Positions 24,648 to 37,249 of a stretch of DNA of 52,731 nucleotides are shown one piece after another. The stretch covers positions 1 through 52,731 of the forward strand of contig JAPLEZ010000100.1 in NCBI GenBank assembly GCA_026390935.1. Reading direction: 5' to 3'. The first letter of the stretch is position 1. Each line of letters begins with the position of its first letter. The notes under the pieces were generated by a model that worked only from the letters and a program-made list of their open reading frames with translations, was not told where the DNA came from and ran no database searches. The position numbers and the translations under genes are program-made. The DNA comes from Bacteroidota bacterium (GTDB taxonomy: Bacteria > Bacteroidota > Bacteroidia > Flavobacteriales_C > GCA-002722245).

Positions 24648-27600
24648 TTGAATTACAAAATAAAATATCTCCTCGTAGTAATATTCACAGCATTCTCAAT
24701 TTGCGGATTTGCGCAAAAAGAGTATGATCAATGGTACTTTGGTGCAGGTGCAGCACTTGATTTCAGCTCAGGAAATCCAGTTGCTAAATCTGGAAGTGCC
24801 ATGCACAACTCTGAAGGAACTGCTTCTATTGCTGATTGCAATGGTAAACTTCTATTTTATACTGACGGAATCACGGTTTGGAACAAAAACAATAAGCAGA
24901 TGCCCAATGGAAATAACTTGCACGGCGATGCATTTTCCACACAATCGGCTTTAATACTTAAGCGGCCAAATAGCTCTAACATATATTACATTTTCACAGC
25001 TTCGGACAATTCCGGACTTCAGTACTCTATTGTGAATATGACCACCAACGGCGGACTAGGAGACGTCACCTCAAAAAACATTTCACTAAATACTTCGGGA
25101 ACTGAGAAAATCACGGTGACTCGCCATGCCAACGGACAAGATGCTTGGATAATTACTCATTTAGAGGACAGCGATGAATTTGACGCTTTTCTTGTGACAA
25201 GCGCAGGAGTATCTACTAGTCCTGTAGCAAGTTTTTCTGGACCCGTTCATACCTCAGGACATGGCGACATAAAAATTTCACCAAAAGGAAATAAAATTCT
25301 TACTTGCGTGGAGTTTATGGATTTAGTGAGCTTATCTGACTTCAATAACTCGACAGGTGTGGTGAGTAACACCAACACAACTTACAAATTTCCGCAGCCG
25401 CACGGTGGTGAATTTTCAGCCAATGGAAATCTGGCGTACGTCAGCTCTGCTTGTTTCTTTGGAAGCAATTGTACCAATACAGGGATTTCACAACTAAATT
25501 TACTTTCACCAACATTGGTCATGTGGAGTACTTCTATAAAAGTGAGCGGCTCCTCAAGAACATGGGGTTCGTTGCGAAGACATAGCAACGGCGTAATATA
25601 TTGTACTGATGACGGAAGCTCGTTCCTTGGAACGATAGCAAATCCTGATGTATTGGGGACGGGATGCAATTACAACCACAACAGTATTTTTTTAGGAGGC
25701 AATAAAGCAGGATGGGAATTGCCTAATGATATTTTAACTAGCGCTCCCATTGCGCCAGGAGCTGTTGACTTTACAATTACTGGCGGGGTGTGCCCAGAAG
25801 ATCCTTACACCTTTAAAATTATTAGTGCTCAACCTGTTATTTCAGCTTCCTGGGACTTTGGTGATCCCGCCTCTGGCTTTTCAAATTTCTCTTCCCTTAC
25901 CCAAACTACGCATAAATTTTCCGCAACAGGAACTTACACGATCTCTGTTTTCATAAATGTAGATGGTTGCCATACTATCACTCTCAATAAAACTTTGACA
26001 GTGAATAAAAACCCTACCGCTGATGCGGGAGTGGATGTAAGTGTTTGTTTGGGGAGTACGGTTAACATTGGCGAAAACAGCAGCTCAGGCGTGACTTACT
26101 CCTGGACTCCAAATGATAAAATTTCAAATCCCAACATCAGCAATCCATTGGTTTGGCCGCTCACTCCTCGATACTATTATCTAAAAACTACTGACGCGAA
26201 AGGATGTAATGCATTCGACACTGTATTTGTATTGGCTTCTGGGACCGTTCCACCCAATGCCGGTCCAGACACCAGTATCTGTTTAAATGACAGTGTTAAA
26301 ATTGGCGGAAACCTGAAAGCACCCAACAACACCACCTACAGCTGGATACCCGCCACGGGCCTAAGTAATTCTCACATCCCCAATCCGATGGCCAGTCCAG
26401 CAACTACCACCAAATACTATTTATACTCACAAAATGATACCTGCGCAGGTCTAGATTCTATGATACTCACTGTGCATGCATTACCTCCCGTAATCGCATC
26501 TTCTTCCAAAAGTGAAATATGTTTTGGCGACAGCACTCAACTTAATGCTGTTGGGGCTTTGAGTTACATATGGAGTCCAGCAGGAAACATAAACAACATC
26601 AACATTCAATCACCATTAGTATTTCCGAAACAAAATACATTTTACAAAGTTATGGGAACAGATGTGTTTTCTTGTAAAAATTCAGACAGCATAGAAGTTG
26701 TGGTTAATCCTCTTCCTATTTCTACTGCTGGACTGGATACCGGACTTTGTGTGAACGACACCATTCAATTACAGGCATCTGGAACCGGCACTTATTTGTG
26801 GCAGCCCTCTGCAGGATTGAGCGATAGTACCATCGAAAATCCTTTGGTTTACACCACTAAAAGCATAGTCTACACGCTGTTAGTTACAGATGTAAAAGGC
26901 TGTAAAAAGAAAGATTCCATAAAAGTTGTAGTGCACACCCCTCAAGCTTTCACACTAGATAACACCCTTATTTGTGAAGGAAGTAGCCAACAACTTTGGG
27001 CAAAGGGAGGTGTTAAATACAAATGGTGGCCAGGAGAAAGTTTGAGCGATAGCACCATTGCCAATCCGGTGGCAAAACCCATAAGTCCAACTACGTATTA
27101 TGTGGAAGTCACCGATTCGTATAAATGTATTGATACCGCTTCTTTCCAAATATCATTAAACATAGTGCCCACTTCTGTTTTCTCCATCGTGAAGCAAACT
27201 CCGAGTTGTGAAGGATTCCGAACCGAATTCACCAATACTTCTATAAATGCCGATTCACAATTGTGGATTTACGGAGACGGAACAATATCAAGCGAAAAAG
27301 TACCTCAACACACCTATCCATTTGGCAAAAACGTACAAACGAGCTTAATCGTTACCAACAACGGAATTTGTCATGACACCATGAGCCTTTCCCTTGACAT
27401 CAAGAGTATATCCGATGCAGTAACAATTGCCAATGGCAACGTATTAACCTTAAACAACGATAACATCAACGATTGTTTCTCTGTGGAAGTAAAAGATGAA
27501 TTTCAGGGTTGTGTGTCGCTGAGAATATATGACCGCTGGGGCCTATTGATGTATGAAAATAAGGCCTATGCATACGGGGAGTGTTGGGACGGAAAAAGCA

Positions 27601-27692
27601 ATTTGACCAAACAGTGGGTAAACCCAGGTACATACTACTATATCATTTCCATCAAGGACTACAGCAAAACTGGCTACATCACTGTTTTTTGA
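24648..27692 (+). CDS. Large T9SS-type surface protein with PKD/Ig repeats and gliding-motility-type C-terminus
   Basis: A 1014-residue protein. The start is TTG at 24648, which places a good signal peptide (MNYKIKYLLVVIFTAFSICG) at the N-terminus; no in-frame ATG precedes the signal cleavage. Residues ~25-360 resemble a beta-propeller-like module common in these proteins (QWYFGAGAALDFSSG, then LLFYTDGITVWN). A PKD domain follows (SWDFGDPASGFSNF). Then come about five Ig-like units of the form SICxxDSxxL...YSWxPxxGLSNSxIxNP...TTYYVxVTD, and a second PKD-like unit. The end (VSLRIYDRWGLLMYENKAYA, then CWDGK and GTYYYIISIKDYS) matches the gliding-motility-associated C-terminal domain used for T9SS export. 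Probable surface adhesin or structural protein. Confidence 0.87.
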   Translation: MNYKIKYLLVVIFTAFSICGFAQKEYDQWYFGAGAALDFSSGNPVAKSGSAMHNSEGTASIADCNGKLLFYTDGITVWNKNNKQMPNGNNLHGDAFSTQSALILKRPNSSNIYYIFTASDNSGLQYSIVNMTTNGGLGDVTSKNISLNTSGTEKITVTRHANGQDAWIITHLEDSDEFDAFLVTSAGVSTSPVASFSGPVHTSGHGDIKISPKGNKILTCVEFMDLVSLSDFNNSTGVVSNTNTTYKFPQPHGGEFSANGNLAYVSSACFFGSNCTNTGISQLNLLSPTLVMWSTSIKVSGSSRTWGSLRRHSNGVIYCTDDGSSFLGTIANPDVLGTGCNYNHNSIFLGGNKAGWELPNDILTSAPIAPGAVDFTITGGVCPEDPYTFKIISAQPVISASWDFGDPASGFSNFSSLTQTTHKFSATGTYTISVFINVDGCHTITLNKTLTVNKNPTADAGVDVSVCLGSTVNIGENSSSGVTYSWTPNDKISNPNISNPLVWPLTPRYYYLKTTDAKGCNAFDTVFVLASGTVPPNAGPDTSICLNDSVKIGGNLKAPNNTTYSWIPATGLSNSHIPNPMASPATTTKYYLYSQNDTCAGLDSMILTVHALPPVIASSSKSEICFGDSTQLNAVGALSYIWSPAGNINNINIQSPLVFPKQNTFYKVMGTDVFSCKNSDSIEVVVNPLPISTAGLDTGLCVNDTIQLQASGTGTYLWQPSAGLSDSTIENPLVYTTKSIVYTLLVTDVKGCKKKDSIKVVVHTPQAFTLDNTLICEGSSQQLWAKGGVKYKWWPGESLSDSTIANPVAKPISPTTYYVEVTDSYKCIDTASFQISLNIVPTSVFSIVKQTPSCEGFRTEFTNTSINADSQLWIYGDGTISSEKVPQHTYPFGKNVQTSLIVTNNGICHDTMSLSLDIKSISDAVTIANGNVLTLNNDNINDCFSVEVKDEFQGCVSLRIYDRWGLLMYENKAYAYGECWDGKSNLTKQWVNPGTYYYIISIKDYSKTGYITVF

Positions 27693-27729: not shown

Positions 27730-27737
27730 TATATTTG
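27730..27737 (+). promoter_or_regulatory. TATATTTG (-7 element) for the receptor operon
   Basis: A perfect TAnnTTTG 30 nt before the ATG at 27768. It overlaps a possible TTG start at 27735, which argues for the ATG instead. Confidence 0.5.
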
Positions 27738-27767
27738 GCCGTCGTTAAACTGAAATCACAGCCCCTT

Positions 27768-30700
27768 ATGGCCAAATTACTGTTTCGTGTTTTACTCATT
27801 TTATTGTTGCCTTTGGCGGCGCAAGCCCAAACAGGTACGCTTAAGGGAGTGATAAAAGATGAAGCTGGAAATGCTTTAATGTATGCCGAAGTCAGTGTTC
27901 AAAAAAACGGGGAAAATGTTTCCTCAACACAATCCAATGACAAAGGAGAATTCACTATTAAGCCAATCAATCCAGGTTCCTATGACGTTGTAGCCACATA
28001 CATGGGCCTGCAATCGGAAAGAACAGAGGGGGTTCAGATCGTTATTGAAAAAATCACCTTTTTAGATATTGTATTAAAAAAGGCAATCGTCACAGAAGCC
28101 ATCTCAATAAAGAAATATAAAGTACCACTGATTGATCCTGACTTTAAATCGGGAAGTACTAAAACTGCAGAAGACATTATTAAATCACCATTAAACAATG
28201 TTGCTGATATCGCTTCGACAACTGCGGGTGTTTATGCTGAAGACAATGGAAGTGGAGAGTTAAACATTCGTGGTTCTAGGGCCAGCGGAACATTGTATTA
28301 CGTAGATGGCATTAAACTTAGGTCTTCAATTGAGTTGCCAAAATTAGGATTGGAACAAATCACTGTAATTACAGGAGGGTTTCCTGCAAGATATGGTGAT
28401 GCCACAGGAGGATTGGTTGTGGTGACAACGAAAGGACCTAGTCGAAAACATGAACAAGGCGTGAACTTCGAAAGCTCTAAATTTTTAGATGGCTATGACA
28501 ACAATACCATGGAATTCTTTTTTCTTGGACCATTGTACAAATCGAAAACTAAACCATTATTTGTAGGCTATTCACTTTTAGGTCAGTTGCACTCCATGCA
28601 AGATCCAAGACCTTCAGCTGTTGGAGTATGGACAGTAAAAGACAGTGCATTTGCAGACTTACAACAAAACCCATTGGCTCCTTCTCCTACCGGACAAGGA
28701 ACTATCCGCCGTGCAGAACTGCTGACCAAAGATGATTTACTGTGGAAAAAAGCCCATCAAAATGGAGCTTCTAAAGGATTTACCCTTACTTCAAAAATAG
28801 AAATTCGTCCGACAAAAAAACTAAACTTCACATTAGGTGCGTATGCTAATTATGTTAATAATCATGCGGACGTGTACAACTACTCTCTATTAAATTATGA
28901 AAACAACCCCATGAATACTGTGTTCAACTGGAGGCTATATGCAAAAATGTCCCAAAAAATAGGAGTACAGGATGAAGACTTGACTGATGACACTAAAAAA
29001 CCTTTGGTTAAAAACATGTATTATACACTGCAAGTGGATTTCGACCGGTTAAATTCCACATCCGAAGACGATAGCCATGGTGACAATATATTTGAATACG
29101 GTTACATTGGTCAGTTTAAAACCAGTAAAGAAAAAACGTATACTTTTGATTCCCTAGGAGCAAGTGGAGCTAAATACTATATGCAGGGCTGGCAAGATAC
29201 CCAATATGATCTTTTGAAAGTCGGTAACAATCAAACTGCTTCCCGATACACTCAACAATATTATGATTTTTACAATGGTTTCGTGAAAGACAATTACGAA
29301 AACTATGCACAGGTGCAAAAAGGAGGTGCTTTACTGAATGGAGATCGCCCTCAACATGTATATGACATATGGTACAATACAGGTCGACAAAGTAATGGAT
29401 ACAGCAAATCACAAGACGACCAATTCCGCTTAATAGGCAGCTTGTTTGCTGACATTAAAAATCACGAAGTCAATATGGGCTTTGAATATGAAAGACGAAT
29501 AATACGATCCTACGGCATCAGCCCTATGGGATTGTGGACTGTAGCTCGACAATTGGCCAATGCCAAAAACATAGAGCTCGACAAAAGCACAGCTATTATT
29601 GTTGGTGATAGCGTTGATTACAACAGATTATATGTACCTACTATTGATCCAGTGACGGGAAAAGTGATCAACGGTTTTTTTGAAAACGTGCGCACAAAAA
29701 CAGGGAATGCCAATACTGATTTTGTGGACACAGACAACCTTACCCCAGATGACCTATCTCTAAGTATGTTCAATGCTTCAGAATTGTTGCAAAGCGGAAA
29801 CAATAGCCTATACAACGGCTTCGGGTATGATTATCTCGGGAATAGTTTAAGCAACTCCGCGTCCTTTGGAAATTTCTTCACACAAACGGATGGAAATAAT
29901 GCCTTACTCAGAAATGCTCCGGCTTTTCAACCAATATATATGGCAGGTTATATTCAGGATAAATTTGTATTTAATGATATCATCTTCAATGTTGGACTTC
30001 GTGTTGACCGTTACGACGCAAATCAAATGGTGCCAAACGATCTTTATTCACTATACCCCATTAAATCAGCAAAGGAAGCTAGAGACGAAGGCATAAGCAT
30101 ACCTACAAACATTGGCGACAATTACAAAGTATACGTTACCGATCAGAACGCTGCTTTAAAAACAGCAACAGGTTTCAGAGATGAAAACAACAATTGGTAC
30201 AATGCACAAGGAACTGAAATAAATGACCCTTCTATTATTGCATCCTCTTCTTCCACTGGAACAATTACTCCTTATCTTGAAAATCCTAAAGCAAATGTAA
30301 AATCCAGTAATTTCGACTTTGCAAGCTCTTTCAAAAAATACGAAGCTCAATATACTGTGTGTCCTAGAATTTCTTTCTCTTTCCCAATTTCAGATGAAGC
30401 AATGTTTTTTGCTCATTATGACATTCTTGCCGAACGTCCTATGGAGGGCATTTCAAGAAATGACCCAATGAATTATCTCTTTATGGAAAATTTGGTGGGT
30501 GGATTAATCAATAACCCTAATTTGAAACCTCAGAAAACTACAGATTATGAGCTAGGTTTTGCCCAAAAATTAACGAAATCTTCAGCAATTAATATTTCTG
30601 CCTTCTATCGCGAAATGAAAGACATGATGCAACTCACTCAAATTAGATTTGCATATCCCGTGAATTACTTGACTTTTCAAAACATTGATTTCGGAACAGT

Positions 30701-31418
30701 AAAAGGCTTATCTATCGCCTACGATTTGCGCAGAACTAAAAACATTAAAATGGGAGTTAACTATACTCTTCAATTTGCAGAAGGAACGGGAAGCGGTGCA
30801 TTCAGTAGTTTAAATATTTTAAATTCAGGATCACCTAATTTGCGAACCATAATGCCTTTGGATTTCGATAGACGACACAACGTCAACCTAGAAGTAGACT
30901 ATAGATATGGACAAGGAAAAAACTATGATGGACCATCATGGGGACGAAAAATATTAGCAGGTGCAGGTATCAATTTTTTAGTGCGGACAGGATCAGGCAC
31001 ACCTTATTCACGACAATCCAATATTACAGAAGACATTGCCTTATCTAAAAGTCAAAGCAGAACATTAAGTGGTCAAATTAATGGCTCTCGCCTACCATGG
31101 ACTTTCAGGATTGATTTGAGAGCTGATAAAAACGTGGTCATTAAATTTGGACAGGAAAAGGATAAACAAAAAACAACTGTACTCAACGTCTATTTGTCGG
31201 TAAATAATTTACTAAACACGCGAAACATTTTGAATGTTTACCACTACACTGGAAACCCGAACGACGACGGCTTCCTTACCGCCGCGGTTTCACAACAAGA
31301 AATTAACGCCAAGGTAAACCGCCAGTCATTTATCGATTTGTATTCGGTTGCAATTAATAGTCCGAATAACTACAGTTTACCAAGGTTAATAAAATTAGGT
31401 GCGATATATAACTTCTGA
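27768..31418 (+). CDS. TonB-dependent outer-membrane receptor with N-terminal carboxypeptidase-like domain
   Basis: A 1216-residue protein from the ATG at 27768, which gives the signal peptide MAKLLFRVLLILLLPLAAQA. An earlier in-frame TTG at 27735 would put 11 residues before it and lies in the promoter box. About residues 22-100 form the carboxypeptidase-D-like regulatory domain (GTLKGVIKDEAGNALMYAEV). A plug domain follows (NIRGSRASGTLYYVDGIKL; GFPARYGDATGGLVVVTTKG). The rest is a 22-strand barrel ending in the aromatic residue of LGAIYNF. Substrate unknown. The next gene starts 1 bp after the stop and a PorV/PorQ protein follows, forming a compact receptor/partner/PorV unit. Confidence 0.9.
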   Translation: MAKLLFRVLLILLLPLAAQAQTGTLKGVIKDEAGNALMYAEVSVQKNGENVSSTQSNDKGEFTIKPINPGSYDVVATYMGLQSERTEGVQIVIEKITFLDIVLKKAIVTEAISIKKYKVPLIDPDFKSGSTKTAEDIIKSPLNNVADIASTTAGVYAEDNGSGELNIRGSRASGTLYYVDGIKLRSSIELPKLGLEQITVITGGFPARYGDATGGLVVVTTKGPSRKHEQGVNFESSKFLDGYDNNTMEFFFLGPLYKSKTKPLFVGYSLLGQLHSMQDPRPSAVGVWTVKDSAFADLQQNPLAPSPTGQGTIRRAELLTKDDLLWKKAHQNGASKGFTLTSKIEIRPTKKLNFTLGAYANYVNNHADVYNYSLLNYENNPMNTVFNWRLYAKMSQKIGVQDEDLTDDTKKPLVKNMYYTLQVDFDRLNSTSEDDSHGDNIFEYGYIGQFKTSKEKTYTFDSLGASGAKYYMQGWQDTQYDLLKVGNNQTASRYTQQYYDFYNGFVKDNYENYAQVQKGGALLNGDRPQHVYDIWYNTGRQSNGYSKSQDDQFRLIGSLFADIKNHEVNMGFEYERRIIRSYGISPMGLWTVARQLANAKNIELDKSTAIIVGDSVDYNRLYVPTIDPVTGKVINGFFENVRTKTGNANTDFVDTDNLTPDDLSLSMFNASELLQSGNNSLYNGFGYDYLGNSLSNSASFGNFFTQTDGNNALLRNAPAFQPIYMAGYIQDKFVFNDIIFNVGLRVDRYDANQMVPNDLYSLYPIKSAKEARDEGISIPTNIGDNYKVYVTDQNAALKTATGFRDENNNWYNAQGTEINDPSIIASSSSTGTITPYLENPKANVKSSNFDFASSFKKYEAQYTVCPRISFSFPISDEAMFFAHYDILAERPMEGISRNDPMNYLFMENLVGGLINNPNLKPQKTTDYELGFAQKLTKSSAINISAFYREMKDMMQLTQIRFAYPVNYLTFQNIDFGTVKGLSIAYDLRRTKNIKMGVNYTLQFAEGTGSGAFSSLNILNSGSPNLRTIMPLDFDRRHNVNLEVDYRYGQGKNYDGPSWGRKILAGAGINFLVRTGSGTPYSRQSNITEDIALSKSQSRTLSGQINGSRLPWTFRIDLRADKNVVIKFGQEKDKQKTTVLNVYLSVNNLLNTRNILNVYHYTGNPNDDGFLTAAVSQQEINAKVNRQSFIDLYSVAINSPNNYSLPRLIKLGAIYNF

Positions 31419-31419
31419 T

Positions 31420-34400
31420 ATGAAGTATGAAAAAATAAAATATACTTTTTTTGCTTTACTGCTCGCAGTGGTAAACACTTTATTTGCTAGGGAAAATGTT
31501 GGCATAGTTCAACTTCTTCCGCAGCAAAACGGATCGTATTACGCTGCAGATTGTGATCCGGCAACAAGTGAAATTGATTTGAGTTTGAATAATGTTCGTG
31601 CGCGTATTTTAGGCGGTGGTGACATGTGGTGGGATTTGAATAAAAGTGCGCAATATGAAATACCAAAAAATGGAGGTGTAAGCTCTCTCTTTGCAGGTGC
31701 ACTATGGATTGGCGGTACAGATCAAAACGGTAACCTGAAAGTGGCAGCAATGACATACCGTCAAACAGGTAATGATTTCTGGCCCGGACCAGTGAGCAAA
31801 ACCACAGTAAGTACTGACCGCACTACATGTTTGCAATACGACAAGCACTACAAAGTGAAAAGAAAAGAAGTGGAAGATTATGTTGCTGCTTACGAAGCAG
31901 GACAAAATCCTAGTGTTCCTGAATCCATGATGAACTGGCCTGCGCATGGAAGTAATGCTATGGGACAAGATTATTTCCTCGCTCCTTTTCACGACACCGA
32001 TGGCGACAATATTTACAATCCTGCAAAAGGCGATTATCCCAACTATGATCTTTCAGGTCAATCAGGTTGCAGTGGCAGTTATTTATATGGAGATGAAACT
32101 ATCTGGTGGATTTTCAACGACGTTGGAAATATCCATACCGAAACAGGAGGACAATCCATCGGACTGCAAATCAAGGCTCAGGCCTTTGCTTTCAGCACGA
32201 ATGACGAAATCAACAACATGACTTTTTACAATTATGAAATTGAAAACAAGTCGAGTTTTGCCATGCAAAACACTTATTTCGGTCAATGGGTGGATCCCGA
32301 TCTCGGTGGTCCTCGTGATGACTATATAGGTTGTGATGTATCCCGCGGATTAGGATATTGCTATAATGCTGACGACAATGATGGCGCCGATCAAGGAAGT
32401 GCTGGTTACGGACAAACGCCACCTGCCATTGGACTCGATTTTTTTCAAGGTCCGAAGGCTGATCCAAACGACGGTATTGACAATGACAGAGATGGCACCA
32501 CTGATGAAGTGGACGAGTTGATCATCATGTCGAATTACATGTATTACCGCAATGATCAAACCGACATGGGTAACCCACAAAATGCTACCCACTTCTACAA
32601 TTATCTCAAAAACATTTGGAAGGACGGCACGCACCTACAATACAAGGGCAATGGCTGGCCAACTGGCGGAGGTACCAATGGTGTAAGCACCAACTTTGCT
32701 TTTCCTGATAATAGCGATGCTACTAAATTTGGATCTTACGGCGCATGGTCGCAAATTACTGAGAATGATATACCTGCCGATTTGCGTTTTATTCATTCTG
32801 CCGGACCATTTACTTTGCAATCTGGACAAGTCAACAAAATCACGGTTGGTGCAGTTTGGGCGCGTGCACAGCAAGGTGCATCAGCATGGGCTTCTGTGTT
32901 AGCAGTAAAAGCAGCAGATGATAAAGCTCAGGCTCTTTTTGACAATTGTTTTAAAGTATTGAACGGTCCGGATGCACCTGATATGAATATTCAGGAAATG
33001 GAAAATTCATTGTTGATTTCATTGGAAAACAAATCTTCTTCAAACAACTATCTTGAAAAGTATACTGAGTTTGATCCACTGATTGATGCTTCAGGAACAC
33101 AAAACTATGATTCTCTTTATCGCTTTCAAGGTTATCAGATTTATCAACTCAAATCCGCAACTGTTTCTGCATCTGAATTGAATGACCCTGCAAAAGCTCG
33201 TTTAGTGGCACAATGTGATTTAGACGACAATGTATCACAAATCATTAATTACAATCAAGATGAAGCACTAGGAGCGCTAGTTCCTGTGGAAATGGCTAAA
33301 GGTGACGACAAAGGAATTGCTCATAGTTTCAAAATTGAAAAGGATATGTTTGCTACAGGTGATGATAGGCTAGTGAATCACAAGCAATATTATTACATGG
33401 CGATCGCATATGGATACAACGAATACAAGAAATTTTCATTCAGTGACCCATCGTCATTTGATGGACAGAAAAAACCATATAAAGCAGGACGAAGAAATGT
33501 AAAGGTTTACGATGCAATGCCGCATGATCCATTGCCGGAATTGGGTGGAACACAAATTAACTCTTCATATGGACTGCAGGCCAAACTCACTAGAGTAGCT
33601 GGAAAAGGACATGGCCGAGAATTCATCAATTTAGCTCCTGAAACCATTACTGAAATATTGGCGAACAATACTGCTTCCACCGTCACATACGCTAATGATG
33701 GAGCACCTGTAAATATAAAAGTGATTGACCCTTTGCTGGTTCCCGATGGAAATTTCATTTTCAGAATGTTGGATACCATTACCGCCAACGATTTAAAAGA
33801 TGCTTATTGGATGCTTATCCACAAAGAGAAAAACGACACGGTTTTTGCTGAAAAAAACATCGGATCAGCCAACGAACAAATTATAAAAAAATGGGGCCTC
33901 TCGGTTACTGCTTTTCAAAACTATGGCCCTGGGGATTTAAAAGCGACAAACAATGCATACGTGGGTTCATCCATGACTTTCGGCAAAGACGGGAATGGAA
34001 TTGCATGGTTGAGCGGAGTAAAAGATTTAGATGGCTCTCCTGTTTTTCAAGATTGGATACTTTCTGGTGCAGGCGATAAAGATGAAACCCCTGGAACAAA
34101 CAAAAACAATAAGTTAGATGTTAATCAGGATTACGAAAAGATATTGGAAGGGATCATTGCTCCATACCGATTGACTTCCCACGACAGAAATGGTCCTGCG
34201 TGGAATTGGTCGATTTCCCTCACTCAAAACAAGATCAGTAATTTAATGTCTGTTGACCTTGTGATTACCTCCGACACTTCAAAATGGACGCGCTGTCCAG
34301 TGCTTGAAATGTGTGATAGCTCGCTGCTAAGCGAAGGAAATGCTGGTAAATTAGATTTACGAAAATCTCCATCCGTTGATAAAAAAGGCAATCCTGATAA

Positions 34401-35223
34401 TTCAGGAACCACTGGAATGGGATGGTTTCCAGGCTATGCCATCAATGTTGAAAGCGGACACCGACTCAATATGGCGTTTGGAGAAAATTCCGGACAAATT
34501 GAAAATCACGGTAGAGATATGAAATGGAATCCTACCAACAAGGATTTCAACAGCAAAATAGACACGTTTAAAGTGATGGATGCAGTATTTGGAGGTATGC
34601 ATTCCATATTCATTTTTCAAGATGCTAAAGATGTTCCAACTTATGACCATGGTGAATATGTTCGCGCTAAACTTTCTGCCAATAATATCAACGAAAAAAC
34701 AAAGGCTATTAAAGATATTCAATGGGTATTTGCATACCCTCTAGCGAATGAGGTTTTTGGATATATTCCTTCCGATGTACACATAAAAATTAGAGTAGCT
34801 AAACCATATGCGGCAACCAGCAACGGTGCTCCTTTGCCTGAATTTACTTTTAATACTACAGATATAAAAGCTGTTACAGGAGATCGCTCTTCTGCAAAAT
34901 TTGCCCTTGATAAAATCAACATCGTTCCAAATCCATATTATGGCTATTCAGCCTATGAAGAACGTCAATTGGAAAGAATTGTAAAAATCGTCAATCTTCC
35001 GGACAAATGTAAAATCAGAATCTTTACGCTAAACGGAACCTTGGTTAAAACCTTTAACAAGGACGATAAGTCAACGACGAATGTGGAATGGAATCTCGAC
35101 AATGATGCGGGAATTCCAATTGCTTCAGGTTTTTACATTGTTCACGTGGAAGTTGAAGGCGTTGGAGAAAAAATATTGAAATGGTTCGGTGTAATGCGAC
35201 AAACTGATTTGAGTACTTTTTAA
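31420..35223 (+). CDS. Large exported partner protein with Ca-binding-like loops and C-terminal FlgD/T9SS-like domain
   Basis: A 1267-residue protein from the ATG at 31420, one base after the receptor stop; an in-frame start at 31399 would overlap the receptor gene and displace the signal peptide (MKYEKIKYTFFALLLAVVNT). Near the N-terminus are conserved Trp/Gly-rich stretches (GGGDMWWDLN, FAGALWIGG). Two Asp-rich calcium-loop-like motifs follow: DTDGDNIYNP and DGIDNDRDGTTDE. The C-terminal ~100 residues (VPNPYYGYSAYEE, KIRIFTLNGTLVKTF, EWNLDNDAGIPIASGFYIVHV) form an FlgD-type beta-sandwich like those in T9SS cargo, but the end (KWFGVMRQTDLSTF) differs from the basic tail of common type A sorting domains. 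Probably surface-exposed and working with the receptor. Function otherwise unknown. Confidence 0.8.
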   Translation: MKYEKIKYTFFALLLAVVNTLFARENVGIVQLLPQQNGSYYAADCDPATSEIDLSLNNVRARILGGGDMWWDLNKSAQYEIPKNGGVSSLFAGALWIGGTDQNGNLKVAAMTYRQTGNDFWPGPVSKTTVSTDRTTCLQYDKHYKVKRKEVEDYVAAYEAGQNPSVPESMMNWPAHGSNAMGQDYFLAPFHDTDGDNIYNPAKGDYPNYDLSGQSGCSGSYLYGDETIWWIFNDVGNIHTETGGQSIGLQIKAQAFAFSTNDEINNMTFYNYEIENKSSFAMQNTYFGQWVDPDLGGPRDDYIGCDVSRGLGYCYNADDNDGADQGSAGYGQTPPAIGLDFFQGPKADPNDGIDNDRDGTTDEVDELIIMSNYMYYRNDQTDMGNPQNATHFYNYLKNIWKDGTHLQYKGNGWPTGGGTNGVSTNFAFPDNSDATKFGSYGAWSQITENDIPADLRFIHSAGPFTLQSGQVNKITVGAVWARAQQGASAWASVLAVKAADDKAQALFDNCFKVLNGPDAPDMNIQEMENSLLISLENKSSSNNYLEKYTEFDPLIDASGTQNYDSLYRFQGYQIYQLKSATVSASELNDPAKARLVAQCDLDDNVSQIINYNQDEALGALVPVEMAKGDDKGIAHSFKIEKDMFATGDDRLVNHKQYYYMAIAYGYNEYKKFSFSDPSSFDGQKKPYKAGRRNVKVYDAMPHDPLPELGGTQINSSYGLQAKLTRVAGKGHGREFINLAPETITEILANNTASTVTYANDGAPVNIKVIDPLLVPDGNFIFRMLDTITANDLKDAYWMLIHKEKNDTVFAEKNIGSANEQIIKKWGLSVTAFQNYGPGDLKATNNAYVGSSMTFGKDGNGIAWLSGVKDLDGSPVFQDWILSGAGDKDETPGTNKNNKLDVNQDYEKILEGIIAPYRLTSHDRNGPAWNWSISLTQNKISNLMSVDLVITSDTSKWTRCPVLEMCDSSLLSEGNAGKLDLRKSPSVDKKGNPDNSGTTGMGWFPGYAINVESGHRLNMAFGENSGQIENHGRDMKWNPTNKDFNSKIDTFKVMDAVFGGMHSIFIFQDAKDVPTYDHGEYVRAKLSANNINEKTKAIKDIQWVFAYPLANEVFGYIPSDVHIKIRVAKPYAATSNGAPLPEFTFNTTDIKAVTGDRSSAKFALDKINIVPNPYYGYSAYEERQLERIVKIVNLPDKCKIRIFTLNGTLVKTFNKDDKSTTNVEWNLDNDAGIPIASGFYIVHVEVEGVGEKILKWFGVMRQTDLSTF

Positions 35224-36254
35224 TGAAAAGAACAGCTAAAATATTGATCCTCTTGTTGTGCTCTCATTCATTGTTTGCTGGAAACGGAGACAGGTCAGGA
35301 GAAGCCGGAGCCACGCAATTGCTCATTAATCCTTATGCACGCTCATCGGCATTAGGAAATGCTAGTACATCTAGCATTGAAGGTTTGGAATCGCAATTCA
35401 TCAACATTGCAGGAATCACAAAAACCAAAGGAACTGAGTTGATCTTTTGCAGAACAAGCTGGTTGAAGGGAACTGATATCAACATAAATAATTTTGGTTT
35501 CAGTCAGAAACTTGGTGAAAGAAATTACATTGCATTTGGCATTATGTCTTTTAGTATGGGGAATATTCCCATTACAACGGTAGACTTGCCTGATGGAGGC
35601 ATTGGCACGTACAGTCCGCAATTCATAAACATCGGCACCTCCTATGCCCGACAATTCACCAGCAGTATTTCGGGAGGAGTTACCCTACGTGTTATTTCTG
35701 AAGCAATTGCCAATATCCAAGGTTTAGGTATGGGCATTGACGCCGGAATTCAATACATCACTGGAAAGAAAAAGAACATTGGATTTGGAATTGCATTGAA
35801 AAATGCCGGACCGAAAATGCGATACACCGGTGACGGCTTATCTGTAAAAGCTATGTTTAGTGCCGACAGACAACAAGTAACATTGGAGTCGCGTTCCCAA
35901 GCTTTTGAGCTTCCACTACTAATGAATATTGGCGCTCACTACCGCTTTGACATAGGTACAAGCCATCAGTTATTTGCACAGGCAACTTTCGTTTCCAATG
36001 CTTTCATGAAAGATCAGTATTGCGTAGGAGTAGAATATCGCTTTAAAAAATACTTCATGGCACGCACAGGTTTTGTGTACGAAGACGGCATTTTTAATGT
36101 GGCTACACGAACTACAGCTTTAACTGGACCAACAGCTGGTTTTTCAGTAGAACTGCCTTATAAAGAGAAGATGGTTTTTGCTTTTGACTATTCCTATCGC
36201 GACACCAGTCCTTTTCAGGGAACACATAGCTTTGGCGCAAGAATCAGCTTCTAA
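35223..36254 (+). CDS. PorV/PorQ-family outer-membrane protein
   Basis: A 343-residue protein. The signal peptide MKRTAKILILLLCSHSLFAG precedes a PorV/PorQ-type start (AGATQLLINPYARSSALGNAST) and FadL-like beta-barrel strands to the end (FQGTHSFGARISF). PorV shuttles T9SS cargo to the attachment complex and PorQ is a paralogue. This copy is not obviously either, so it may be dedicated to the neighbouring large exported protein. Its ATG shares one base with that gene's TAA, indicating translational coupling. A terminator-like hairpin follows at about 36323-36352. Confidence 0.87.
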   Translation: MKRTAKILILLLCSHSLFAGNGDRSGEAGATQLLINPYARSSALGNASTSSIEGLESQFINIAGITKTKGTELIFCRTSWLKGTDININNFGFSQKLGERNYIAFGIMSFSMGNIPITTVDLPDGGIGTYSPQFINIGTSYARQFTSSISGGVTLRVISEAIANIQGLGMGIDAGIQYITGKKKNIGFGIALKNAGPKMRYTGDGLSVKAMFSADRQQVTLESRSQAFELPLLMNIGAHYRFDIGTSHQLFAQATFVSNAFMKDQYCVGVEYRFKKYFMARTGFVYEDGIFNVATRTTALTGPTAGFSVELPYKEKMVFAFDYSYRDTSPFQGTHSFGARISF

Positions 36255-36282
36255 TTTCACTGCTTTACGTTTCCTCTTTTCT

Positions 36283-36312
36283 TTTGCTTTTGAAAATAAT
36301 TTCGTAATTTCG
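36283..36312 (+). promoter_or_regulatory. Putative greA promoter
   Basis: TTTG (36283-36286), 18 bases, then TAATTTCG (36305-36312). The same octamer also occurs directly upstream (36297-36304). Predicted transcription start near 36318. Confidence 0.45.
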
Positions 36313-36322
36313 ACGCTTTAGA

Positions 36323-36352
36323 GAGGGATCCCTAGCAATTGGGATTCTTTTT
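36323..36352 (+). terminator. Hairpin plus T-run between the porV-like gene and greA
   Basis: GGGATCCC-TAGCAATT-GGGATTC forms a 7-10 bp stem (some G-U), followed by TTTTTATTTT. It could end the receptor operon. Because the greA promoter lies upstream of it, it could also act as a leader attenuator for greA. Confidence 0.6.
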
Positions 36353-36378: not shown

Positions 36379-36852
36379 ATGTCTGAAATGATTTATTTTA
36401 CCGAGGAAGGTTTGAAAAAACTTAAAGAAGAGTTGCATCAACTTAAAACATCAGAACGCAAAAAATTATCACAACAAATCGCAGAAGCAAGAGACAAAGG
36501 AGATTTGTCGGAAAATGCTGAATATGATGCTGCAAAAGAAGCCCAAGGTTTATTGGAAGTAAAAATAAACAAATTAGAAAGCGACTTAGGCAATGCACGA
36601 TTGATTGATGAGTCAAAAATTGACACTTCAAAGGTTTTTATTTTGTCTACAGTTAAAATCCGCAACACAAAATCCAAGGCGGAAATGAAATATACTATAG
36701 TAGCTGAAAACGAAGCTGATTTTAAATCGGGCAAAATTTCGGTAAGCTCTCCAATTGGCAAAGGTTTACTGGGCAAAAAAGTAGGCGACAAAACCACTAT
36801 AAAAGTACCAACAGGCGAAATGGAATTTGAAATCGTGAAAATTACGAGATAA
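36379..36852 (+). CDS. greA: Transcription elongation factor GreA
   Basis: A 157-residue protein. The N-terminal coiled coil carries the acidic tip (ARDKGDLSENAEYDAAKEAQ) that reaches into the RNA polymerase secondary channel and stimulates cleavage of backtracked RNA. The C-terminal FKBP-like domain ends with SPIGKGLLGKKVGDKTTIKVP. Full length. The HIT-family gene follows 4 bp later and is co-transcribed. Confidence 0.96.
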   Translation: MSEMIYFTEEGLKKLKEELHQLKTSERKKLSQQIAEARDKGDLSENAEYDAAKEAQGLLEVKINKLESDLGNARLIDESKIDTSKVFILSTVKIRNTKSKAEMKYTIVAENEADFKSGKISVSSPIGKGLLGKKVGDKTTIKVPTGEMEFEIVKITR

Positions 36853-36856
36853 GTCC

Positions 36857-37249
36857 ATGTCGAGTATTTTTACCAGAATCATCAAAGGAGAAATTCCATG
36901 TTATAAAATTGCTGAAACCCAAAATTTCATTGCTTTTTTGGATGTTAATCCCCTGAAAAAAGGGCACACCTTAGTGATACCTAAAATGGAAGTTGATTAT
37001 ATTTTTGACCTGGAAGATCAGTTACTGGCCGATCTTCACGTCTTTTCAAAGAAGGTAGCAAAAGCCATTGAAAAAACTATTCCTTGCTTAAGAATTGGCA
37101 TTGCCGTGATAGGCCTGGAAGTACCACATGCACATATTCATTTGGTGCCTTTGGAAGACATGGGGGATTTAAATTTTTCAAATCCGCGTGTTCAATTGAC
37201 TAAAGAAGAATTTAGCACTTTGGCCGCCACCATTGCTTCAAATTTATAA
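36857..37249 (+). CDS. HIT-family nucleotide-binding protein
   Basis: A 130-residue protein with the histidine triad VPHAHIHLVPL near the C-terminus and the N-terminal FTRIIKGEIPCYKIAET of the HINT branch. The family hydrolyses nucleoside phosphoramidates or related adenylated compounds; the physiological substrate is uncertain. The Cys residues of zinc-binding HINT members are absent except Cys 16. It is paired with greA, a common arrangement in the phylum. The end overlaps radC by 6 bp on the opposite strand. Confidence 0.92.
   Translation: MSSIFTRIIKGEIPCYKIAETQNFIAFLDVNPLKKGHTLVIPKMEVDYIFDLEDQLLADLHVFSKKVAKAIEKTIPCLRIGIAVIGLEVPHAHIHLVPLEDMGDLNFSNPRVQLTKEEFSTLAATIASNL

Follow-up and report, generated by a model that had tools for sequence, protein, structure and literature searches.

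Three adjacent genes in a 52,731-nucleotide stretch of a Bacteroidota genome (contig JAPLEZ010000100.1, hereafter the window) probably encode a three-part outer-membrane receptor unit. They encode a TonB-dependent receptor/transporter (TBDT), a large exported protein (here called the cargo) and an outer-membrane barrel of the PorV/PorQ family. We hypothesise that the cargo is exported by the type IX secretion system (T9SS), that a private barrel keeps its C-terminal sorting domain (CTD) uncleaved, and that the cargo serves the receptor. The three open reading frames (ORFs) form a run on one strand. The TBDT stop codon ends at 31418 and the cargo ATG starts at 31420, leaving a 1-bp gap, while the cargo TAA (35221–35223) shares 1 bp with the barrel ATG at 35223. 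The first-pass annotation of this DNA had all of these positions right. The genes and the parts of the cargo are as follows.

27768–31418, forward: TonB-dependent receptor/transporter, 1216 residues, with signal peptide, CarboxypepD_reg domain, plug and barrel
31420–35223, forward: exported partner (cargo), 1267 residues, without a family name
31420–31488, forward: predicted Sec signal peptide of the cargo, about residues 1–23, without a lipobox cysteine (read from the sequence)
31543–32964, forward: conserved β-rich N-terminal domain of the cargo, about residues 42–515, with an acidic motif at residues 292–306 (from alignment and AlphaFold)
32965–33489, forward: putative FN3-like β domain of the cargo, about residues 516–690 (named from sequence pattern and predicted strands)
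34903–35220, forward: predicted T9SS sorting domain (CTD) of the cargo, PorZ/PorU (uncleaved) type, residues 1162–1267
35223–36254, forward: PorV/PorQ-family outer-membrane barrel, 343 residues, proposed private carrier and anchor of the cargo

Searches for the cargo found it in 53 of 60 relatives and in 137 of 296 genomes across the phylum. The neighbourhoods of 100 matches and of 80 named contigs were then read with profiles of the three proteins. The genes are not routinely unlinked in relatives, which bears out the operon described in the first-pass annotation: the full trio, in the same order and on the same strand, is present for 145 of the 179 long cargo homologues, with median gaps of 24 and 22 bp. 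The linkage of the three genes is far beyond chance, phylum-wide, and the idea that the trio is confined to a few relatives was rejected. In close relatives the cargo occurs as one copy per genome. Outside the Bacteroidia there is a named and cultured carrier, Rhodothermus marinus DSM 4252, whose plasmid pRMAR01 encodes the trio as RMAR_RS14120/14115/14110. These are annotated as TonB-dependent receptor, hypothetical protein and PorV/PorQ family protein (homology 5e-15 for the cargo and 4e-26 for the receptor). The trio is thus ancient. Within the class Bacteroidia it adjoins greA (97 of 145 trios) and a HIT-family gene (95 of 145), and because this adjacency has been kept, the locus is old and mostly vertically inherited. 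Of the 34 long homologues outside a full trio, most are either additional paralogues that lack partners or genes truncated at contig ends.

The C-terminal end of the cargo had been described as FlgD-like and lacking the usual type A tail. This was a fair description, as the whole protein scores below cut-off for both FlgD_ig (15.4 bits) and TIGR04183 (19.1 bits; curated cut-off 23), but it can be refined. The last 106 residues of 53 members were aligned alone. All 53 CTDs match the PorZ model NF052228 (best 4.3e-13), all 53 match TIGR04183, and 43 match the PorU model. The best PDB sequence match of the CTD is PorZ (5m11, 5.3e-4). An AlphaFold model of residues 690–1267 (mean pLDDT 87.7) likewise has PorZ as its best PDB fold match (1.6e-6), and the top ten also include PorU and the NucA CTD bound in the SprA–PorV translocon (8glk_D, probability 1.00, TMt 0.70). 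By sequence and predicted fold, the CTD is therefore closest to the PorZ/PorU type, whose CTDs are those that are not removed (PMC11285876, PMC10202324). Its features are a PNPY start, IFTLNGTLV, a W.L.N..G.PIASG.Y insertion, Lys 1254 and a terminal aromatic residue. Lys 1254 is near-invariant, and is followed by 13 mostly non-basic residues up to the F/Y end, which is present in 151 of 179 homologues.

The likeness to PorZ is limited to the CTD. Against the full-length PorZ model (NF052228, cut-off 260 bits) only the CTD part of the cargo matches, at 33.6 bits, and the true PorZ of this genome is on another contig (C92). Searches with Pfam and NCBIfam placed the cargo in no family, and gave weak matches to PorU, TIGR04183 and FlgD at its C terminus only. 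The type B CTD model TIGR04131 does not match, nor do the SusD models, and the cargo has no lipobox, so that it is not a SusD-family lipoprotein. Membership of either the type B or the SusD group was rejected on these model searches.

These results bear on a different explanation, namely that the cargo is an ordinary type A substrate, carried by PorV, cleaved by PorU and linked to LPS. The adjacent barrel would then be otherwise employed, for example in passing a hydrophobic ligand as a FadL-like channel, and shared regulation alone would account for the linkage. The excised CTD does pass TIGR04183, at 24.2 bits, and it has, as type A CTDs do, a near-invariant lysine, the equivalent of which contacts PorV in solved translocons (PMC10994853); FadL-fold barrels can, moreover, be transporters. 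We nevertheless consider this explanation unlikely, since the closest models are the uncleaved CTDs of PorZ and PorU, a conserved and mostly non-basic tail ending in F/Y stands in place of the basic end, and the one-sided adjacency and joint divergence of CTD genes and barrels, described below, would be left without a reason.

The barrel clearly belongs to the PorV family. It matches the family model NF033709 (PorV_fam) at 145 bits (cut-off 90), as do all 35 trio barrels scanned, and it falls far below the equivalog cut-offs for PorV, PorQ and PorV2 (70.9, 71.9 and 37.9 bits against 250, 220 and 325). The PorP/SprF model TIGR03519 gives 19.9 bits (cut-off 90.55). PorV (482 bits), PorQ (338 bits) and PorV2 (491 bits) are all present elsewhere in the same genome, which makes the trio barrel a fourth member of the family there. 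In a tree, the trio barrels of full-length cargoes form one clade with 100% support, apart from PorU-linked PorV, and are an orthologous group of their own.

The family was also surveyed in reverse, by examining the neighbours on both sides of 112 PorV-family genes in 16 genomes. A PorZ-type CTD protein lies directly upstream on the same strand in 63 of the 112, and directly downstream in none (Fisher 9e-25). With PorU-linked PorVs and the window excluded, the upstream CTD protein is still found in 46 of 94. In six further cases two barrels stand in tandem after a CTD protein. Within genomes, distances between CTDs track distances between the adjacent barrels (r 0.52, equalled in 0 of 2000 permutations; without PorU–PorV, r 0.41 and 1 of 2000). 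Cargo and barrel thus duplicated and diverged as pairs, as is expected of cognate partners. The position, the separate orthologous clade and the joint divergence all support the earlier suggestion that the PorV-family protein is a dedicated partner.

Some related arrangements were seen during the survey. In the genome of the window, PorV2 (NF052325, 491 bits) stands beside a 1755-residue PorU-like protein with its own CTD (contig C66:7742–13811, L245), making a second cargo–barrel pair. Tandem PorV-family pairs occur at L333, L339, L341, L345, L347, L351, L353 and L354, with a PorZ-type CTD protein before the pair in six.

The genome of the window also encodes SprA, two copies of PorU, and PorZ. 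Two tandem PorU sortase genes are found directly 5′ of the canonical PorV (contig C130:22069–30584), and a second PorU copy is also present in another genome, G055. In the phylum sample, SprA is present in 136 of the 136 genomes tabulated as carrying the cargo, and the cargo is in none of 68 SprA-negative genomes; it is missing from 92 of 228 SprA-positive ones. Export of the cargo by the T9SS, and its pairing with the barrel, are well supported by these sequence comparisons. The export route had been proposed to be private. It is probably not wholly so, because SprA is present in every carrier and the fold of the CTD, type A/PorZ, is the one that docks in the SprA–PorV translocon; what looks private is the carrier and anchor.

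A PorZ-type CTD together with a PorQ/PorV-type barrel mirrors the PorZ–PorQ pair, and in close relatives there is a single copy per genome. One might therefore propose that the cargo belongs to the T9SS attachment complex or regulates it, as a PorZ-like accessory whose targets would be LPS or other cargoes and not import. We regard this as very improbable: the true PorZ, PorU, PorV and PorQ are present as well, many genomes with SprA do without the cargo, and the constant TBDT would be unexplained.

The TBDT of the window has Plug (1.4e-11) and CarboxypepD_reg (2.1e-13) domains by Pfam. It has no match to the SusC-type model TIGR04056 at 1e-5 and is a family of its own; 14 of 34 homologues do match that model. 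Sixteen CTD–barrel loci, in the choice of which the TBDT played no part, were extended outwards. A TBDT precedes the cargo in all 16 (17 trios, L358 having two in tandem). Four other loci, with a TBDT directly before the barrel, were extended as well, and in each a CTD cargo lies a few genes further upstream. The cargoes of these loci are diverged members of the family, most having segments of the N-terminal-half profile as well as the CTD. By two SusD models, 9 of the 16 genomes have no SusD, and PorV-family counts range from 4 to 24. The multiplication of trios where SusD is scarce or missing is suggestive only: the SusD-rich genome G118 (15 copies) has six PorV-family genes, and that of the window has no SusD and only four. 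The receptor-unit reading is proposed because the TBDT is nearly always present, because its plug and barrel are kept, and because trios multiply where SusD is scarce or absent. The first-pass suggestion that the cargo acts with the receptor is supported only by the constant presence of the TBDT gene.

The same locus could be seen as a module for adhesion or envelope structure, with the cargo serving as an adhesin or matrix protein on the surface and the TBDT as an outer-membrane base or signal receiver and not an importer. The cargo is indeed large and β-rich, and its fold weakly matches one S-layer protein (7ptp, 1.6e-3, probability 0.44), and the single locus syntenic with greA–HIT in the Bacteroidia resembles a household gene set more than a nutrient cassette. 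The receptor, however, keeps its plug, CarboxypepD_reg domain and conserved barrel, and in other classes trios with diverged cargoes multiply (6–24 PorV-family genes per genome), which suits many ligands. We consider an adhesion role quite unlikely.

The remainder of the cargo was analysed for clues to its role. The Sec signal peptide, as read from sequence, is kept in homologues, and the N-terminal domain contains a near-invariant acidic motif, DxDLG...DD...D. AlphaFold predicts residues 26–700 to be β-rich (mean pLDDT 90.6). A fold search with the N-domain returned only parts of GH15/94/116-type enzymes, at TM <0.3, and matched no known binding protein. The cargo as an enzyme was rejected: there is no catalytic Pfam or NCBIfam domain, and the likeness to glycoside hydrolase-type folds is too weak to name a function.

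Six short paralogues (L116–L121, 522–605 residues) have the N-domain in common with the cargo but end in an ordinary type A tail; they have neither TBDT nor PorV partner, and amount to a natural domain swap, with a cleaved-type sorting signal where the cargo has a PorZ-type one. Full-length paralogues such as L170, L204 and L209 also have no TBDT or barrel, and an M28 peptidase gene precedes them in the three tested. The possibility that these orphan cargoes have another fixed partner was rejected, as their neighbours are unrelated (M28 peptidase, MFS, AIR synthase and others).

On the basis of these observations, we propose the following mechanism. The cargo would be exported by the T9SS. Its own PorV-family barrel, and not the general PorV, would collect it and stay bound; this role as carrier is supported by gene pairing, orthology and joint divergence in sequence. 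With the barrel bound, the CTD would not be cut by PorU, and the cargo would remain on the surface. The anchored cargo would then work with the TBDT of its operon, as the constant gene linkage suggests, most likely by capturing a ligand or presenting it for import. We infer the surface location, the uncleaved CTD on the barrel, the cargo–TBDT complex and import. For the role of the barrel there is precedent: the PorU CTD stays on PorV and that of PorZ on PorQ, and such cognate barrels have been proposed to shield their CTDs from cleavage (PMC10202324).

Several points weigh against the receptor unit. Some full-length cargoes with the same CTD stand alone, and have to rely on a barrel from another locus. 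Phylogeny accounts for part of the co-occurrence with SprA, the SprA-negative genomes being largely of one family. Co-duplication of an operon without any contact between its products could alone give joint divergence. The TBDT has no recognisable ligand family, and a SusD-like role of the cargo appears to be without structural backing, given that the predicted N-domain resembles no known binding protein.

The proposed unit has points in common with several known systems. In the PorZ–PorQ and PorU–PorV pairs, a surface protein with an uncleaved Ig-like CTD is held by a PorV/PorQ-family barrel; the CTD of the trio is closest to that of PorZ, and porU and porV are adjacent, in the same gene order as cargo and barrel. 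It differs from them in that the cargo is unrelated outside the CTD, the TBDT completes the operon, and the barrel is a separate clade. The PorU2-like/PorV2 pair (NF052325) of the same genome also places a PorV-family paralogue next to its own CTD protein, although there the partner is a PorU-like peptidase. Type B CTD cargoes with a PorP/SprF shuttle (and PorE) again have a cargo gene followed by its own FadL-fold shuttle or anchor gene, with a third envelope protein in the operon (PMC12618676, PMC9143113). In the trio, by contrast, a type A/PorZ-like CTD is combined with a PorV-family shuttle, and a TonB-dependent transporter takes the third place. According to the literature, PorV serves all type A CTDs, and the trio would depart from this.

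The lipoprotein SusD captures or presents a ligand for SusC. SusC–SusD resembles the trio in having a CarboxypepD_reg TBDT and a dedicated, presumably surface-exposed partner in one operon, with many copies in some genomes; in the trio the partner is a T9SS cargo of 1000–1500 residues instead of a lipoprotein, and the TBDT of the window lacks a TIGR04056 match. The trio may thus be a second way to build nutrient-receptor complexes. More tentatively, as something that could well be true but that we would stop short of calling probable, there may be a phylum-wide class of receptor complexes in which the partner is delivered by the T9SS and held by a PorV-type barrel of its own. Such a class would be a counterpart of SusCD, either older or parallel, that expanded where SusD is rare or absent. 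With it might go a general rule, by which a PorV-family paralogue is in most cases the cognate carrier of the CTD protein whose gene lies just before it, and protects that protein from cleavage. No description of a receptor–cargo–PorV trio, of a private PorV paralogue family or of a link between the T9SS and TonB was found in the openly licensed PMC literature, and earlier work elsewhere is possible.

Unlike other T9SS cargoes, PorZ and PorU are spared the removal of the sorting domain, and cognate PorV-like barrels have been suggested as the reason (PMC10202324). With the trio come tens of naturally occurring cargo–barrel pairs, many per genome, with which this can be tested in harmless, cultured bacteria such as Rhodothermus marinus. 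If the link to the receptor is true, T9SS export and TonB-dependent import, which are treated as separate, become joined, and a role is explained for many ‘hypothetical protein – PorV/PorQ family protein’ pairs in Bacteroidota genomes.

The elements that flank the operon are listed below.

27730–27737, forward: putative Bacteroidota −7 promoter element TATATTTG, 31 bp 5′ of the TBDT ATG (from motif count and similar placement in same-genus genomes)
36321–36352, forward: terminator-like hairpin and T-rich tail, closing the operon before greA
36379–37249, forward: greA (36379–36852) and a HIT-family gene (36857–37249), outside the system (names from reading of the proteins)

The −7 box reported in the first-pass annotation is present, and a TAnnTTTG is similarly placed in the other genomes of the genus that were read, but the motif is not more frequent than chance in the window (61 against 66.6 expected). 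Across trios, the element is near the TBDT start in 35 of 143, against 15.3 expected. Similarly, at 12 pairs the stem of the downstream hairpin is the longest terminator-like one in the region, but sites of this kind are no more numerous there than chance would give. Promoter and terminator motifs were for this reason rejected as standalone evidence. The gene directly upstream (24684–27692, forward) encodes a T9SS type B cargo (CHU_C/TIGR04131) with PKD and Ig-like domains; it is found 5′ of the trio only in the window and the two closest genomes, and so is probably not part of the system.

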